Of a stretch of 64,000 bases of DNA, positions 24,273 to 60,583 are shown one piece after another (position 1 is the first letter of the stretch; each line of letters opens with the position of its first letter). The notes under the pieces were generated by a model that saw only the letters and a program-made list of their open reading frames with translations, searched no databases and was not told where the DNA came from. Both the position numbers and the translations under genes were made by a program. The DNA is from a virus. Location: IMG/VR virus record IMGVR_UViG_3300020190_000054, positions 1 through 64,000 of that record. The stretch is one strand, 5' to 3'.

Positions 24273-25434
24273 TCAGACGCTACCGTCATCAGACACAAAG
24301 CTGTAGGCGGTGGTCACGAAGTCCTTGTTCAGGATCTCGAAGCCAGCGTACAGTTGCCAGATGAGGATGATGAAACGGCTGAAGTCGTCGTTGTTGTTGA
24401 TCAGCACCTGAGCGTTCGGACCGCCGATACCAACGCCAATGGCTTGAGGACCGAAGAAGAAACCTTGGGCAACTTCTTGGTTGGCATAAGGGGCAGCGCC
24501 GGTGAAAGAAGCCGAAACGTTCTTGGTCGGGAAGTTGGTCGACTCGAAGAACTTAACGCCTTCAAACTGAACACCAGTCGGCATGACGGGTTCACCAGCC
24601 AGGAAATAAGCCTGACCAGCTTGGGGACCCATGTAGAAGCTGGCGTTGTTAGGCATCATGGGGTTGCCCATGTACATGCCTTGGCCAGGATTGCCAGCGT
24701 AACGAGCAATTTCACGGAAGTCGGGATCACGACGCAGGTGCATCATGAAGGTGGGATCGCAGATGCAACGATACAGACCATCAGCGAAGGTAGGAACGTT
24801 ACGCTTGCGCAGATCCTTGACAACAGTCAGAAGGTCGGTACGCACCGAGAACTGCTGCACATCAGCGGTGTACTCAGCGGAGCTGTAAGTAACTTGGCTG
24901 GAAGAGTTCTTGGCTTTGTTACCAGGGAAGTAGTAACCACCTTGGGTGCTGGAAGCTTGACCATTGGCATCAGCTTTGGCCAGTTCGTCAATGAAGACGC
25001 GGTCACGCCAACGGCGATAGTCATCAAGCAGCGTCAGGCTACCGATCGACTGGTGGAACATATTCAGGTTGCCGGTGTCCAGCAGCAGACGCTGGGCGGT
25101 AACCAGGGTTTCACGAGCAATCTTGAAGGTGCTGGGCTGGGTCGGATCGCCCGGATCAGCAGGGCCGGTGTACTCTTTCAGCACAACAAGCACCTTCTCT
25201 TTGGTGATGTTGCGGCTGTTAGCGGTACCGATGGTTTGGTCAGCCACGCGCTCACGGCTGTCCTTGGTACCAGGAGTACCCCAGAACTTATAGCGGTCGA
25301 GCTGAACGGTTTGACCAGGCTGACGAGTGAAGTCGTGAACAACCACGGGCTCCACAGCCATCTCGGCAATATATGCAGGGTGCGGACGATAGAGTTCCGC
25401 GCCTAAAATCTTTGGAAAATCGTTCTCCTGGTCC
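24273..25434 (-). CDS. Major capsid protein, 3' exon
   Basis: The frame from the Met at 25361 gives 362 aa, but the same frame is open and protein-like up to 25442 (QENDFPKILGAELYRPHPAY precedes IAEMAVEP), so the start is elsewhere and the gene is split. The body (VLVVLKEYTGPADPGDPTQP, RRWRDRVFIDELAKAD, DPTFMMHLRRDPDF, EVAQGFFFGPQAIGVGIGG) fits HK97-fold, N4 gp56-type major capsid proteins. Location after portal and scaffold-like genes supports this. Immediately upstream lies a group I intron core; the exact 3' splice site (about 25434/25435) is inferred. Highly biased codons support strong expression. Confidence 0.8.
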
Positions 25435-26252
25435 CTAATTTCTTAGAGGGGTGGACTATCTCTTCATCCCTGTGGGATGCCGGACGCTAAATCTGGTATT
25501 ACGTAACAAGATCGTGTTACCCCCAGTAGTCTCTGCACCTTCCAATCACGGGCTTGATTGGCTTGGCTCAGGATTACCCTCGTCTTTACGTTAGGGCTTC
25601 CCTGAATTCATCCGGTTTGCACTCATCAATTACTCGATGAGGTGACAACGTTGAGCGTTCAGTTGAGGTATGATTTGGAAACCTGTTCATAAACAACATG
25701 GATCCAAAATTAGTTCCTGGATTTGGTAACCTTTACTTAACAGAAAGAGGAGAAGCTTTTGAAAAACAACTTGATGAAAACAACCAAGAATATTTTCAAA
25801 AAATTGCAATTAGCTCAACCAGTACTTATGACCGTATTTCTGTTCTTGTAAATGGAAGAAGAAAGAGGTTTCATCTTCACGTCTTGATGGCTATTGCTTT
25901 TTTAGGGTTAGATCTTCGTTCACATGGAACAAATAATTTTTCCCTTCAAGTAGATCACAAGGACAACAACAAAAGAAATAACTGCGTCGATAACCTTGAA
26001 ATCGTAACCAAACAAGAAAATCTTACAAGAGCTTGGGAAACCGGTTGTTACAAGAACAATGGTTTTGCTAGTAAAGGCAGACCGAAAAAAACTTTAAGAA
26101 AATTTTCTTCGGAAGACGTGAAGCAAATTAAAACTTTAAAAGAAGCAGGACTTTCTTATCGAAAGATTGCGGAAAAGTTTAACTGCAATCACGGTGCTAT
26201 TTACCAAATCCTAAAAGGAAATACCTACCAGGATCTGAACTAGCTATCAATA
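25435..26252 (-). other. Group I intron interrupting the capsid gene
   Basis: Minus-strand conserved core elements are seen: a hairpin CTCATC/GATGAG (P2-like), AATTCAGGGAAGCCCTAA, AATCCTGAGCCAAGCC (25560-25575), GGTGCAGAGACTA (25527-25539) and AAGAGATAGTCC (25453-25464, the P7 partner). These are the P4/Q-R/P7 consensus of group I introns, as in phage introns. The 3' end is near 25435 and is followed by capsid-coding sequence. The 5' end is less certain: GTCACCTC (25639-25646) could be the internal guide and pairs with AGGTG at 26255-26259, giving a U-G closing pair at 26253. An antisense HNH gene fills the 5' part. Confidence 0.75.
25698..26243 (+). CDS. HNH homing endonuclease, antisense to the capsid gene
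   Basis: 181 aa. The N-terminal NUMOD4-like region (GFGNLYLTERGEAFEKQ) is followed by RFHLHVLMAIAFLG, the HNH_3 core LQVDHKDNNKRNNCVDNLEI (DH at 86-87) and a C-terminal HTH (FSSEDVKQIKTLKEAGLSYR, KIAEKFNCNHGAIYQIL) like intron-encoded nuclease repeats. It is A/T-richer than the neighbouring capsid DNA. The gene runs opposite to the intron that seems to house it; its own promoter may be TATGAT near 25669. Confidence 0.85.
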   Translation: MDPKLVPGFGNLYLTERGEAFEKQLDENNQEYFQKIAISSTSTYDRISVLVNGRRKRFHLHVLMAIAFLGLDLRSHGTNNFSLQVDHKDNNKRNNCVDNLEIVTKQENLTRAWETGCYKNNGFASKGRPKKTLRKFSSEDVKQIKTLKEAGLSYRKIAEKFNCNHGAIYQILKGNTYQDLN

Positions 26253-26352: not shown

Positions 26353-26892
26353 TTACGTGTACTGCATGGTAGGTGCTTTATAACGAGCACCCATCGAATT
26401 ACTGGAGCCATAAGACTCCGGATCAACTACAGCTTGCTGGAATCCAGGGAGACCCATGGCACCAGGAATAGCGCCAAGGGCTACACCGCCAAGACCGGCA
26501 GCAGCAGCAGAAGCAGGAACTAAACCAAGAGCCACGTTCCTACCTAGCACACGCGTAGTTGCCGCAGTTGCTTCAGGAATAGAACCTGCGCCACCTGCTA
26601 CATCAGCTAGCTCCAACAGAGCTTTCTGACGTAAACCGCCTTCACGCATCTTTGTTGCTTGTTCAAAAAGGAAGTCCTGTTGTTCTTGGCCCAAATTTTG
26701 GATACCTTTTACCATTTGAGGAGCGTACTTCCCGGCTAGAGCACGTGCCCCAAGTAAACCAGCTGCACCACCAAGACCACCGGCCGCAGCAGCAAGTGCC
26801 GCAGAACCGGGATCCTCTCCTTGAGAAAGGGCGTACCCACCCGTGGCTAAGCCAGCAGCAATAGGTACGCCATAAGCTAAGCGCTTACGCAT
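26353..26892 (-). CDS. Ala/Gly-rich hydrophobic virion protein
   Basis: 179 aa. Three Gly/Ala-rich hydrophobic stretches (about 8-25, 30-52, 118-145; e.g. AAGLGGVALGAIPGAMGLPG) surround a helical middle (EQQDFLFEQATKMREGG). It resembles other Gly/Ala-rich virion proteins in the 35-42 kb block. Lying between scaffold and capsid genes, it may be an internal head protein. No family was recognised. Confidence 0.55.
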   Translation of the reverse strand: MRKRLAYGVPIAAGLATGGYALSQGEDPGSAALAAAAGGLGGAAGLLGARALAGKYAPQMVKGIQNLGQEQQDFLFEQATKMREGGLRQKALLELADVAGGAGSIPEATAATTRVLGRNVALGLVPASAAAAGLGGVALGAIPGAMGLPGFQQAVVDPESYGSSNSMGARYKAPTMQYT

Positions 26893-26896
26893 CGCC

Positions 26897-27862
26897 TTAC
26901 TCCATCACAAACAGTTTGTTTGCCAGCGTTTGAGGCTGAGCTTGGTTCATGAGCCGCCAGGCGTTCTGGGGATCACGAGCCATTTGCTCGCTGAAATTAG
27001 CCCAGAAGTTTTCAGGTTGCTGAGGAGCATCAGCAGCCGGAGGGGCAGGGAACTGATTCATGGCAGTAGGTTGCACAGCTTCGGTGCGATAACCAGGACG
27101 CTCAAGTTCCACTTCGTTTTCGTACACGGGGTACGGACCTTCAGGACCAAAGAACTTCAGGGTGTAATCACTGAGAACGTCAGGATTAGTCAGGATTTCG
27201 TTGTACGCCAGGTTCTCTTGATGCTCATTAACAGCAAACTGGGCGTAACCCTGAATGGTATCAGCGGCGCGGTTTCCCCACGCGACGGCGCTGTCCAGCA
27301 TTGCCTCCAGATTCAGGGCGTAGTTGTTCAGAAGGGCGGGTGCCTCGATTCCGAACGCGTCCATTACTTGGCGGCTGTCCTGGCTCATTCCCAACTGGTC
27401 CGCGAGCGCCACCAAGGAGGGAGCTGACGAGGTTTGGGAAGAGTTGGGCGATAAGGCCGGGTTGGCTTGCCAGGTCTGCGGAGCCGATTGTTGCGTAACT
27501 TGGGCGCTGGCTTGTTGGCCGTAGTTCGCCGGGGAATACTGAGTCGTCGGCTGCGAGGGTTGACCCTGGAACGGGGATTGGACTGGTGCGCTCAGCAGAT
27601 TCACCACCTTGTTGAACGCCGATTCCCACGGATTCGAGATAGTTTCCGAGGTCGTCGGGGATTGGGGGGCGTACTGAGTAGGGGCTGATTGGTAATTGGG
27701 GGCCGCCTGCGGCACCGCTTGGGGGTAACTGGTACCCACCTGATACGGCACCGGAGCCGGGGAGGCTGCCTGTTGCGGAGCTGCCACCACGTAGCTGCTC
27801 GGAGCGACGGCTGCGGGTGCTGGGCTCGTCTGTGGGATCGATTGGACGGTAGCGTCCTGCAT
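26897..27862 (-). CDS. Scaffold-like protein overlapping the portal gene
   Basis: 321 aa. The first about 130 residues are Pro/Gln/Ser/Ala-rich and disordered (SPAPAAVAPSSYVVAAPQQ); the rest is helical (QVMDAFGIEAPALLNNYALN) and acidic. Size, composition and place between portal and capsid fit a scaffolding protein. ATG 27862 has a strong AAAGGAGA Shine-Dalgarno, so translation from inside the portal gene is credible. Its first 602 nt are read in the +1 frame relative to the portal, and this region is unusually GC-rich. Confidence 0.7.
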   Translation of the reverse strand: MQDATVQSIPQTSPAPAAVAPSSYVVAAPQQAASPAPVPYQVGTSYPQAVPQAAPNYQSAPTQYAPQSPTTSETISNPWESAFNKVVNLLSAPVQSPFQGQPSQPTTQYSPANYGQQASAQVTQQSAPQTWQANPALSPNSSQTSSAPSLVALADQLGMSQDSRQVMDAFGIEAPALLNNYALNLEAMLDSAVAWGNRAADTIQGYAQFAVNEHQENLAYNEILTNPDVLSDYTLKFFGPEGPYPVYENEVELERPGYRTEAVQPTAMNQFPAPPAADAPQQPENFWANFSEQMARDPQNAWRLMNQAQPQTLANKLFVME

Positions 27863-29609
27863 AACTCATCTCCTTTTGTAAGGCCTCTAATGTTCGATAC
27901 AGATATGGGGTTAAATCCAGTCTTGGATCCGCAGCCATCGGAAGATCCGGTGATTGCGGGTGAGGAGTCTGCATCATGCCCCCCACTAAACGAGCGAAAG
28001 AAGAATATGCATTCTGCAATTCGCCCACCATCCTGAACGGGAACCCAGATAACATCTCGGCCCGCTCCTCATCCGTCTTGGACGGGAAGAGGTATTTCAG
28101 TGCCTCAATGCTATCAACACCTAATTCCTGAAGGTTGCGCACCACAATGGAGTTGTTCAGGATGTCCTGTGTTGAATCCTCGTATACGGGACCCAACCAA
28201 CGCCATTGAACAGTAATGTCACCATCGGGAATTAGCCCCAGCACCCCTGGAGGAATCTGCTGGGTTTTAACGCATGCCATCATTAATTGCTTTACTTGAT
28301 CTTCAAAAGCAGTCAACGCATCTGCATAAAGCGCCAACTCGTTTTCATCAGCATTTTCGTCCGGCTCAACAGGTTTTTCAAGACCTGCTGCAGCTGCCAA
28401 TGTGGTGCGGAAAATCTGCTCTTCTTGATAAATAATTAATTCAAGACAGCGACAAATGCCATACGTATACACAGCATTTGCTTTTTTCTTTGATGTTGCC
28501 GAAACACGTCCAAATAAGGACTTGTACTCTGTTGCCGTTACACCAGCGGAAATAGACAGTTCATCAACACCGCCCAATGCCGTACGAATTTCTTCGCGGT
28601 ATTGACGAGCAAATGAATTTTGATCACCAGTAATAGCATCTGGAACAATGTAACCAACTCGATCGTTTGGTTCCAGGTTTGCAATGACTCGTGGAACACG
28701 GATTTGACCGTCAATGCCACGAGCTAAAGGATCAGATTTAAACCGAGACTGGCTTAAGCTGCCCATCCCAGTAAAGCCTGAATTAGCTGCAATGGAAGGG
28801 CGTTGAACAACGGTGTCACCACCAGCTTCCATCAGGTCAGTCTTAGGCCTGGAAGAAAGAAGAGTAGGATTACCAAAGAACTGAACGTTCTTACGCATGG
28901 TGCGAACCATTTCGTCATGCGTAACAATGTGATTGGCGAGTGCATCAAACTCACCAAATCCTTCAGTTGAAAAGCCTTTGGGGTTATTAAAGATTTCAAC
29001 ACAAGGGATAAACCCTAATGTGTTACGAAATGTTTTTGTTTTACCAGGGGTTGCATAGCTGGGTTGATCGAATGAAATTTCACCTTCCGCATGCGTTTCT
29101 TCAATCGTTTTTCTTTTGATCGAAAGTTTGATATAACGTCGCGCACCTTGATTAATCGTGGCTGGACCTGTCAATTTGGTTGCCGCAATATCTTGATCAA
29201 ACCCAATACCACGACGAACTTTATAGCTGTAGATAATTACGACTTCGTCCAGTTCTCCATCGATGTTGTAATACGTCCGATACTCATGTTTGCGGAAGTA
29301 ATACATTCTGTAATTACTGTCCGTGGGACGGATATAAAAAAGTCCTTGTCCGTCACAAAGAAAATAATCCCAGACTGAATCTAAGCGTGTATCAATTTGA
29401 TTGTACTTAAGAACGCGAGTGACAAAGTCCTTGCGTTGATTCCCAAAATTATCTTGCGCTGGAAAAAACTCAACCCCTTGGCGAATGCCAAAAAGTTTCA
29501 TTTGTGCTAAATGAGACGCAATGACCCCAGTATCGACCATTGCGCTACCGTCTCGTTCCAGGTAGGCGTCAATGATTTCTTTTAAGCGAGATTTTGCGTC
29601 AGCAGCCAT
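27261..29609 (-). CDS. Portal protein with long overlapping C-terminal tail
   Basis: 782 aa. The body has portal-like features: YLERDGSAMVDTGVIASHLA, a long alpha/beta core, VKQLMMACVKTQQIPPGVLG and DGDITVQWRWLGPVYEDSTQ (the late 'W-x-GP' helix region). It docks at the capsid vertex and binds the terminase. The canonical part ends near residue 590 (EALQKEMSYAGRYRPIDP). The last about 200 residues are Gly/Ser/Pro/Arg-rich and are encoded over the scaffold-like gene. Whether the tail is needed is unknown. It sits two small genes after terminase, as in many phages. Confidence 0.8.
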   Translation of the reverse strand: MAADAKSRLKEIIDAYLERDGSAMVDTGVIASHLAQMKLFGIRQGVEFFPAQDNFGNQRKDFVTRVLKYNQIDTRLDSVWDYFLCDGQGLFYIRPTDSNYRMYYFRKHEYRTYYNIDGELDEVVIIYSYKVRRGIGFDQDIAATKLTGPATINQGARRYIKLSIKRKTIEETHAEGEISFDQPSYATPGKTKTFRNTLGFIPCVEIFNNPKGFSTEGFGEFDALANHIVTHDEMVRTMRKNVQFFGNPTLLSSRPKTDLMEAGGDTVVQRPSIAANSGFTGMGSLSQSRFKSDPLARGIDGQIRVPRVIANLEPNDRVGYIVPDAITGDQNSFARQYREEIRTALGGVDELSISAGVTATEYKSLFGRVSATSKKKANAVYTYGICRCLELIIYQEEQIFRTTLAAAAGLEKPVEPDENADENELALYADALTAFEDQVKQLMMACVKTQQIPPGVLGLIPDGDITVQWRWLGPVYEDSTQDILNNSIVVRNLQELGVDSIEALKYLFPSKTDEERAEMLSGFPFRMVGELQNAYSSFARLVGGMMQTPHPQSPDLPMAADPRLDLTPYLYRTLEALQKEMSYAGRYRPIDPTDEPSTRSRRSEQLRGGSSATGSLPGSGAVSGGYQLPPSGAAGGPQLPISPYSVRPPIPDDLGNYLESVGIGVQQGGESAERTSPIPVPGSTLAADDSVFPGELRPTSQRPSYATIGSADLASQPGLIAQLFPNLVSSLLGGARGPVGNEPGQPPSNGRVRNRGTRPSEQLRPESGGNAGQRRRVGKPRR

Positions 29610-30149: not shown

Positions 30150-31676
30150 CTAGAAATCAAGTTGAAGTTGTCCTTTTCTAGCAAGACCGGTCACCAACCA
30201 AACAAGCGCATCTACACAGTCGTCGTGACTGCTTACGCCAAAGTTTGTAAGCTCTTCAAACATATTGGTGAAGTTGCGGTAACGATTAAAAACAATCTTG
30301 CGGTCTTCAAACATACCAATAATCCCACGGAATCGAGCTAATTTATCCGCTCGGAATCCCTTAACGGGATGCCAAATTAAATTGTACAAACCCTCATTAC
30401 TTAAGCAAATACGTTTAAAGTCTGCTTCCAGAGATGCCTGATACTGTACAGCTTCACTCCAAATATCGCACGTCGAATAAGTCGGAAAATAGTTACCGTT
30501 TTCGTCCTTACCTACCACAGACCAATCATTAAGCAATTCTTTAAGGGCATCCAATTTTTCAAGATTACCCATGACACGAATACGGCGGTAATCAATAATA
30601 TGAATGCGATCTCCAATACGACCGCCAAGAACCATTACGGTGTAATCATTCTTTTCTCTGACTCCAGCAGATAAGTCAACCCCAATACCAAGTGCATCAA
30701 ATTCTGTAGAAATTTCGGCTTTAACGATTAATTCTGGTGCAAGAGACAATTCATTTTGTCGAATAATTTGATTCATGTACTGGAACGAAAAAGCAATAGG
30801 TGCTTGTCGTTTCTTTTCTTTTAGATACTCCAGAGACCACATCTCTGGCCAATACGACAATTCATCTCCTGTTTTGGGATCAGTCAGAATTGCAGAAAGA
30901 ACAATTTGCGACCAATTGTTTTGATCGTTAAATGTTGTGGCATGAATGTCATCATGCCGGAAACGTGTACCAAGACAGACTGCGCGACCACCTTCGAACA
31001 TCGTTGGTGCAATCACAGCATTCCAGTTATCCTGCATCATCTTTCTGATGTCAGGATTTGAAATGTCAGCAGCTGATTTGATAGGGTCATCAATGATTAC
31101 CAAGTGAGAACGCTTGGATGTCACTGAACCTTTAAGGCCTGCCGCACAAAGAGTAAATTGTTCATCACCTGTTACGTCAATGCCAGCAAATTTATGATCG
31201 ATTGACCAATATTCATTGCTGGTGACGTTTTTTAAAAGACGTACAGAGGGAAAAACTTCTTGATACCGTTTGCTTTCAATAATTCGTTTAATAGTTGCTG
31301 ATTTAGAACGCGCAATATCAACCGTGTAAGACAAGTAAAGAATCTGTAACGGAAGCTTAGCTTGAGTGTGAATACCAATAGCCCATGCAGTAAATAAACC
31401 AAGGACTGTTGATTTAGCCGAACCCCTGGGGCCAAGAAGATCTACGTTTGGACCAGCAATTTTAATAAGGCACGAACTATCTTGATCTGTTACAAAGTGA
31501 TGATGCCATTCTTTGTGATGCCGAGCAGGGGGTTTGTCTGCGACGTACTCACAAAAATAACCAAAGTCTTCGCGAGCCTTCTTAAGATCAGTTTCGTTTT
31601 TAGGAACTTTGATCTGGTGATTACGCGCAGCCGCTTTTGCGTTGCGCCGATACGCGAGATGAACGTAAGAAGGCAC
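30150..31676 (-). CDS. terL: Terminase large subunit
   Basis: 508 aa from GTG 31676. The ATPase domain shows Walker A GPRGSAKST (82-90), a coupling region and Walker B LVIIDD (192-197) followed by P. The nuclease domain begins IGVDLSAG (Asp334) and ends with SSHDDCVDALVWL, carrying metal-binding Asp residues. It cuts and pumps DNA into the prohead through the portal. No small subunit is recognised; 33614-34231 is a weak candidate. Confidence 0.93.
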   Translation of the reverse strand: MPSYVHLAYRRNAKAAARNHQIKVPKNETDLKKAREDFGYFCEYVADKPPARHHKEWHHHFVTDQDSSCLIKIAGPNVDLLGPRGSAKSTVLGLFTAWAIGIHTQAKLPLQILYLSYTVDIARSKSATIKRIIESKRYQEVFPSVRLLKNVTSNEYWSIDHKFAGIDVTGDEQFTLCAAGLKGSVTSKRSHLVIIDDPIKSAADISNPDIRKMMQDNWNAVIAPTMFEGGRAVCLGTRFRHDDIHATTFNDQNNWSQIVLSAILTDPKTGDELSYWPEMWSLEYLKEKKRQAPIAFSFQYMNQIIRQNELSLAPELIVKAEISTEFDALGIGVDLSAGVREKNDYTVMVLGGRIGDRIHIIDYRRIRVMGNLEKLDALKELLNDWSVVGKDENGNYFPTYSTCDIWSEAVQYQASLEADFKRICLSNEGLYNLIWHPVKGFRADKLARFRGIIGMFEDRKIVFNRYRNFTNMFEELTNFGVSSHDDCVDALVWLVTGLARKGQLQLDF

Positions 31677-59068: not shown

Positions 59069-59320
59069 TTTGATTGGGGGGTTAGCCAGATCGTCTTCAT
59101 TAATGGAAACGTTATTGAAGATAAACATGTCTTGGACTAATCCCCTTATTACTCCTTGTCTGTTAGTAGCGATCTGCGCAAGCATGGTCGCTATTTCTTT
59201 TAAAGTACTAACTGAATTACATTCATCAATCGTACGTTTGACTGTTTCATGCCAGAACTTATCGTTAAGCGAAGGTTCTATTTGAAACCTAGTCAACGGT
59301 ACATACTTAATTTCTTCCAT
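59057..59320 (-). CDS. Small minus-strand protein in the early region
   Basis: 87 aa. FQIEPSLNDKFWHETVKRTI then LKEIATMLAQIATNRQGVIR and GLVQDM. Helical, with the pattern (EPSLxDxFW ... LKExATxL ... VIRGLVxD) found in small picocyanophage proteins of unknown function. It overlaps the convergent stop of 57998-59068 by 12 nt. The A/T-rich upstream gap (59321-59400) may carry divergent promoters. Confidence 0.6.
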   Translation of the reverse strand: MEEIKYVPLTRFQIEPSLNDKFWHETVKRTIDECNSVSTLKEIATMLAQIATNRQGVIRGLVQDMFIFNNVSINEDDLANPPIKSKE

Positions 59321-59400
59321 TGTTTGTATTCAGTTGTACTTAATTTTACTTCCATAGTAAACAACAATTTTTTTCTTTTAAATGTATTAAGAATTACACC

Positions 59401-59604
59401 ATGAAATCAGAATACAAAGCTGCATTAAAAGCAGCGGCTCCTCTTGGCTTGGTTGGTGCAGGGGTTCTTGCTTTAATAGGCAATCCTGCTGCCTGGGCGG
59501 TGCTTGCTTACAGCACGTATCGACTTGGTAAAAACGCGTACCAAGAAGAACAACTTCGTGGTAGGCTGCGCCAGTCAGGAAAAGACTACGACCTTTTCAT
59601 CTGA
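59401..59604 (+). CDS. Small membrane-associated protein
   Basis: 67 aa. A basic start (MKSEYKAALKAAAPLG), a hydrophobic segment (LVGAGVLALIGNPAAWAVLA) and a basic, charged C-terminus (YQEEQLRGRLRQSGKDYDL). Probably one membrane-inserted helix. No family was recognised. Confidence 0.55.
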   Translation: MKSEYKAALKAAAPLGLVGAGVLALIGNPAAWAVLAYSTYRLGKNAYQEEQLRGRLRQSGKDYDLFI

Positions 59605-59629
59605 CTTTTATTACTATTTCAACTTAACC

Positions 59630-60583
59630 ATGACAACAACTTTAACTGAATTAAATGAAGCTCAAAAACTTATTTACACACGTTCAAGCATCGCTCGGGC
59701 ATTCCCTGAGTTCGATGATACGAATGTCGCCCGAATCTATCTACATCAAGATTCTTGCCGTGTGGCTTATCGCGACGGTGCTGAGGTTGATTATCCACGT
59801 CAACAAATAAAAAATTCTTATCAAGACTTTACTACCAGGCTTAAAAATTTCTTTTCGTATTTGGGACCTAACTATCGTGGGCCCAGCATCTGGCACCACA
59901 ATGCCTACATCATGTTTAAAGGATGGTCTTATGCACACTCGTTGGGGCATCGTTCGTTTAATGCGCAGCTTCAAGCTCAGTGGGCTGATAAGTTTATTCA
60001 TTTATCAGACCAAGCTAAACTTCGTGCACTATTGCAATCTGATCAAACTGATCTGGGATATTTGGTTGCCCCTGATGGTTTCCAAATTATTGAGCAGGCT
60101 CGCCTTGGCAGCTGCGCAGATGGCGAGGAAGACTCAGATTCGGCCTCGCAAAAAACTGCGTCATTACCATCGTGTACTTGCGGCTCATTTCAACGACAAC
60201 TAAACAATTTGTCTGAACTTCAACAAGAAATTCCTGGGTACCAGCCATCTTGTATCCACTTGACTTGGTTTAAAAAGTACAGGGAATTGCTTTGTCGTCG
60301 TACTGAAATCAGAAACGCATGCCCTGCGTATGCTCCTGATAAATGCGTGGCTTGGTGGTATGCGCCACCATCTGAGGCAACCGGTCATGGTCGATTCCTT
60401 TTGCTTCATACCAAGCATGGGGCGCAGGCTCCGATTACTCATTGGCGAACTTACAAACCAAACGACATCTTTACAGAAGATGATGCTTGGTCTTTGTTTG
60501 ACAACATGATGGAAGCAGGCTATGTTCCTTTCCCAGGAACTTCATTGCCTCAACTTAAAGCCGCAACCAACAAAGATGGATGA
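59630..60583 (+). CDS. SWIM zinc-finger-like protein
   Basis: 317 aa from ATG 59630 (TTTCAACTTAACC leader; the longer upstream frame overlaps the membrane protein). Residues about 175-215 carry CTCGSFQRQ ... CIHLTWFKKYREL, the SWIM arrangement CxC-xn-CxH that binds zinc and DNA or protein. The N-terminal part (RIYLHQDSCRVAYRDGAEVD) and the C-terminal part are unrecognised. An early regulatory or recombination-related role is possible. Confidence 0.6.
   Translation: MTTTLTELNEAQKLIYTRSSIARAFPEFDDTNVARIYLHQDSCRVAYRDGAEVDYPRQQIKNSYQDFTTRLKNFFSYLGPNYRGPSIWHHNAYIMFKGWSYAHSLGHRSFNAQLQAQWADKFIHLSDQAKLRALLQSDQTDLGYLVAPDGFQIIEQARLGSCADGEEDSDSASQKTASLPSCTCGSFQRQLNNLSELQQEIPGYQPSCIHLTWFKKYRELLCRRTEIRNACPAYAPDKCVAWWYAPPSEATGHGRFLLLHTKHGAQAPITHWRTYKPNDIFTEDDAWSLFDNMMEAGYVPFPGTSLPQLKAATNKDG

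Follow-up and report, generated by a model that had tools for sequence, protein, structure and literature searches.

The portal gene and the gene that follows it in the head module of an S-EIV1-like cyanophage share 602 nt, read in two frames of the same strand. We consider it very probable that the two genes form a genuine overlap, both long and old, present in the head modules of S-EIV1-like cyanophages and of their distant relatives. The stretch of DNA analyzed (hereafter the window) comprises 64,000 nt, positions 1 to 64,000 of the 64,632 bases of IMG/VR virus record IMGVR_UViG_3300020190_000054, and its head module resembles that of Synechococcus phage S-EIV1. On the minus strand, the gene order is terminase large subunit (30150–31676; phrog_38, E 1.9e-74; Pfam Terminase_6C, E 1.8e-10), portal (27261–29609, 782 aa), a 321-aa gene encoding a probable head scaffolding protein (26897–27862), a 179-aa gene and the major head protein (24273–25361; phrog_1357, E 2.1e-17). 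The 179-aa gene (26353–26892, minus strand) encodes a Gly/Ala-rich hydrophobic protein that gave no family match, and between it and the major head protein lies an HNH endonuclease gene on the opposite strand (25698–26243, plus strand; phrog_59, E 3e-27). A first-pass annotation, made from the sequence alone, had described two frames open on the same strand over about 600 nt, and the ORF coordinates bear this out: the portal ORF and the downstream ORF share 27261–27862 (minus strand) in a +1 frame arrangement, so that the same DNA encodes portal residues from about 583 to 782 and residues 1–200 of the downstream protein.

The identity of the upstream partner, previously called a portal from its sequence, is confirmed by its fold. 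Its single-coding core (27863–29609, minus strand; residues about 1–582) matches the virion structural protein family phrog_20475 with an E value of 3.4e-300, and the AF2 model, which has the portal fold to about residue 521, matches many solved portals both in Foldseek (E to 8.8e-12) and in VIA (Z about 20, residues 1–521). The gene has that of the terminase large subunit nearby and precedes that of the major head protein. The model changes character near the edge of the overlap, with pLDDT below 50 for nearly all of residues 581–782, and the mean pLDDT of the whole model is only 61.8 because of this apparently disordered tail. The tail of about 200 residues, rich in G, S, P and R and with a basic end, is thus predicted to be disordered; its mean charge is +3.8 and that of its last 30 residues +6.3.

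The overlap is open beyond chance. We held one protein fixed, permuted its synonymous codons and scored whether the other frame stayed open. With the portal protein of the window fixed, the +1 frame was open in 0.1% of the trials, or in 0.9% when the codon usage of the core was applied; for 13 other sequences, the corresponding proportion ranged from 0 to 37%. With the downstream protein of the window fixed, the portal frame was open in 2.9% and 0.0% of the trials. At random points of the portal core, the open +1 stretch had a median length of 41 nt and reached 416 nt at most.

The arrangement is also retained among relatives, and as these were retrieved by the portal core, without using the overlap, the sample is not biased toward it. 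Both frames are open in every one of the 117 distinct relatives whose sequence includes the whole portal end, with the same frame relation and over 344–641 nt (median 590), although the sampled sequences reach down to about 31–35% full-length portal identity. Indels within the overlap keep both frames. Stop codons in one of the two frames, which the first-pass annotation had named as the outcome that would speak against dual coding, were found in none of the 117 sequences. Among phage records, a significant portal match was found for S-EIV1 (KJ410740) alone; its head module agrees with that of the window in gene order and in the frame of the overlap, which measures 554 nt, with identities of 80% for the portal and 72% for the downstream protein. 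On plasmid pA of Kovacikia minuta, the portal identity is 36% and the overlap, again in the same frame, is 542 nt; this module consists of the portal, the overlapping gene and the major head protein, without any other gene between the last two. The plasmid is a 1.2-Mb cyanobacterial one, carrying the distant S-EIV1-like head module, which lacks the 179-aa gene, at positions 706507–724222 of its record, and the element may be a prophage. A profile search of genome contigs with the portal alignment returned one relative, an 11-kb S-EIV1-like contig in a bacterial MAG. The contig (RFNU01000069) was binned in a MAG from Lake Lanier, where it is probably a stray piece of phage DNA; no further relative emerged from a search of 398 genomes from the phylum of that MAG. 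Deeper lineages were compared for open frames and motifs, and the rates given below come from the S-EIV1-like clade. A C-terminal motif and an ILTxPDxLxxY motif of the downstream protein are homologous across the relatives, whereas the portal tail retains PxPG-type motifs and a C-terminus that is usually basic in distant relatives; in the Kovacikia portal, the last 30 residues are neutral. The alignments used for structure models were built without the Kovacikia locus.

Purifying selection acts on both proteins inside the overlap. For 39 non-overlapping, independent pairs of close relatives within the S-EIV1-like clade, we classed the nucleotide differences by their effect in each frame and computed the rate of each class as the differences divided by the possible mutations, with transitions weighted by their observed ratio. 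With the portal letter first, the per-site rates in the overlap were 0.0060 for NN, 0.0855 for NS, 0.0365 for SN and 0.254 for SS changes. The resulting omegas were 0.165 (95% interval 0.10–0.28) and 0.337 (0.21–0.66) for the portal tail, and 0.070 (0.045–0.108) and 0.144 (0.086–0.276) for the downstream protein. All four values, and their 95% intervals, are below 1, and the dual coding suggested earlier from two open frames is thus backed by rates well below neutral in both. The same code applied to the unused frames of single-coding DNA (the portal core and the rest of the downstream gene) gave values of 0.89–2.8, and the downstream gene outside the overlap (26897–27260, minus strand) has a dN/dS of 0.047.

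Computed in the ordinary way, the dN/dS of the portal tail is 0.85 and looks nearly neutral, which, together with the predicted disorder, would suit a scenario in which the overlap has a function for the downstream gene alone and translation of the portal simply runs on, free of selection, past the end of the fold. The ordinary value is misleading because the second frame distorts it: with the downstream effect held constant, portal-altering changes are 3–6 times rarer than those that leave the portal unaltered (NS/SS 0.34, NN/SN 0.165), and motifs of the tail persist in distant relatives as described above. We consider the run-on scenario highly improbable. The opposite possibility, that only the portal frame is functional and the downstream gene begins after the portal stop, agrees with the deposited annotation of KJ410740 where, unlike in our reading of the window, the downstream gene is shortened and the overlap does not appear. 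It is extremely improbable given downstream omegas of 0.07–0.14 inside the overlap and the fact that 117/117 relatives keep the frame open from an upstream start. In that GenBank record, the S-EIV1 gene is annotated as 59863–60264 only; the full gene is 59287–60264, a conserved upstream start having been missed.

The overlap also differs from its surroundings in base composition, as the initial inspection had noted. In 500-nt windows, GC content peaks at 0.60–0.61 over the overlap in comparison with about 0.43 in the portal core, and by codon position of the portal frame it is 0.715/0.63/0.545 in the overlap and 0.55/0.40/0.39 in the core. The third positions of the downstream gene are the first positions of the portal codons, and across the clade their GC content is 0.67 in the overlap but 0.50 where that gene is free of overlap. 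This coincidence of positions explains the GC-rich patch and fits the earlier idea of a DNA composition shaped by two codes. High GC content, and some near-invariant DNA around the internal Shine–Dalgarno sequence, could also be seen in a stretch conserved as DNA or RNA, for instance as a packaging site or an RNA structure, with the two open frames as a by-product. However, sites that are synonymous in both frames change as fast as is normal for synonymous sites, their 0.254 per site being close to the dS of 0.32 and 0.275 outside the overlap, and constraint at the DNA or RNA level is therefore not the explanation; as the indels also keep both frames, such an element is scarcely credible.

The downstream protein probably starts at a strong internal Shine–Dalgarno sequence. 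Its ATG start codon (27860–27862, minus strand) is preceded by AAAGGAGA at 27876–27869 (minus strand), within the portal codons for ...LQKEMSYAG, in agreement with the internal start at 27862 proposed at first reading. The duplex energy with the anti-Shine–Dalgarno sequence is −9.8 kcal/mol for the internal site of the window and −3.0 kcal/mol for the region that precedes the portal gene; across 133 loci, the internal site beats that of the portal in 93%, with means of −9.4 and −4.8 kcal/mol. An identical or similar motif precedes the downstream start in most relatives. Among distant relatives, L100 and L107 have a weak site before the downstream start. The L096 group and L100 lack an ATG at the usual site, and in L169 stops close the frame from the usual ATG; the start is further downstream in all of these, and in L090 it is slightly downstream of the usual site. 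The portal motif E-x-S-Y persists in the relatives with a shifted start, which indicates that the motif owes its conservation to the portal itself and that the start has moved.

The shared strand and the +1 frame would also be compatible with frameshifting out of the portal gene as the main source of the downstream protein, which would then be a portal–scaffold fusion and not a product of internal initiation; frameshifts in phage structural genes are known. Yet a strong and conserved Shine–Dalgarno sequence and ATG are found at the 5′ end of the frame, which is usually open for no more than a few codons before that ATG. Frameshifting as the main route is very unlikely, and we retain internal initiation as the probable one.

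The position and predicted architecture of the downstream protein make a head scaffolding protein its likeliest identity. Scaffold proteins diverge fast. Known scaffolds include acidic proteins in which a disordered N-terminal part is followed by a long helix and, at the C-terminal end, by a helix-turn-helix. The protein studied here is acidic, its charge being about −17 in all, and its gene is located between those of the portal and the major head protein. Its AF2 model (mean pLDDT 63, pTM 0.34) has a mixed helical and disordered layout: predicted disorder extends to about residue 146, save for one short helix, and is followed by a 52-residue helix at 174–225 and a C-terminal helix-turn-helix at 286–314. 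The protein had no match in Pfam, PHROGs or PDB sequences, or in a Foldseek search of its model against the PDB, and as no homologue was recognized, we infer the scaffold role from position and predicted architecture. On these grounds, the "scaffold-like" label of the first-pass annotation is probable. The lack of a family or fold match would equally suit a real overlap whose downstream protein is some other head protein or an ejected one. We judge this unlikely but deserving of some weight: the gene sits between the portal and the major head protein and adjoins both in Kovacikia, the predicted layout would be shared with known scaffolds, and no other scaffold candidate was recognized among the window proteins scanned.

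In our reading, a single transcript would serve both genes. Ribosomes would translate the portal from a weak site, with its fold followed by the predicted disordered tail of about 200 residues. Read one base later, the nucleotides of this tail encode the disordered N-terminal 150–200 residues of the downstream protein, which is most likely the head scaffold. This protein would be translated independently from the strong internal Shine–Dalgarno sequence and ATG, signals that overlie conserved portal codons (K/R-E-x-S/T-Y). Judging by the strength of the sites, many downstream copies could be made per few portal subunits, and the basic portal tail may contact the acidic downstream protein. In the models, the folded parts of both proteins are almost wholly outside the overlap, and we propose that dual coding is tolerated because both products are disordered there. 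That the arrangement goes beyond tolerated sharing and is a coupling device, in which the scaffold is made off the portal message, the basic tail binds the acidic arm read from the same DNA so that head assembly starts at the portal, and the two frames have coevolved as interacting partners, seems doubtful. The overlap could have arisen either by extension of the portal into the scaffold gene or by the scaffold start moving upstream, as had been suggested at the outset; both alternatives stand because the start codon has moved between lineages, and a codon-usage test for the older frame ended in a tie, with no consistent difference between the frames.

In phage lambda, the scaffold gene Nu3 has an internal start inside the protease gene C, in the same frame and with shared protein sequence. 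The pair described here is similar in that a probable scaffold gene starts within an upstream head gene, but it does so in a different frame and with the portal as its partner. Classic overprinted genes, such as those of phiX174, are mostly found in small RNA or ssDNA viruses, whereas the present pair consists of structural genes from a large tailed dsDNA phage. The products of overprinted genes are described as disordered and Pro/C-rich (PMC8227390), and the pair described here resembles them in this. According to a survey of virus overlaps, +1 is the commonest frame once 1- and 4-nt overlaps are excluded, with a median +1 overlap of 14 nt (IQR 8–26), and overlaps in large dsDNA phages are mostly a few nucleotides (PMC8903798); in contrast, the overlap reported here spans 344–641 nt and is conserved across a divergent clade. 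In the papers searched, judged on titles and abstracts, we found no report of it.

For large dsDNA phages, a long out-of-frame overlap of two conserved structural genes is an unusual feature. The one reported here persists throughout a cyanophage group that is both widespread and divergent, was missed in the annotation of the only isolate found, and involves a head protein absent from the family libraries searched. It also carries a warning, as a tail under selection can pass for a neutral one when judged by ordinary dN/dS (0.85 here), and it provides a tractable natural case of two proteins evolving from the same bases.
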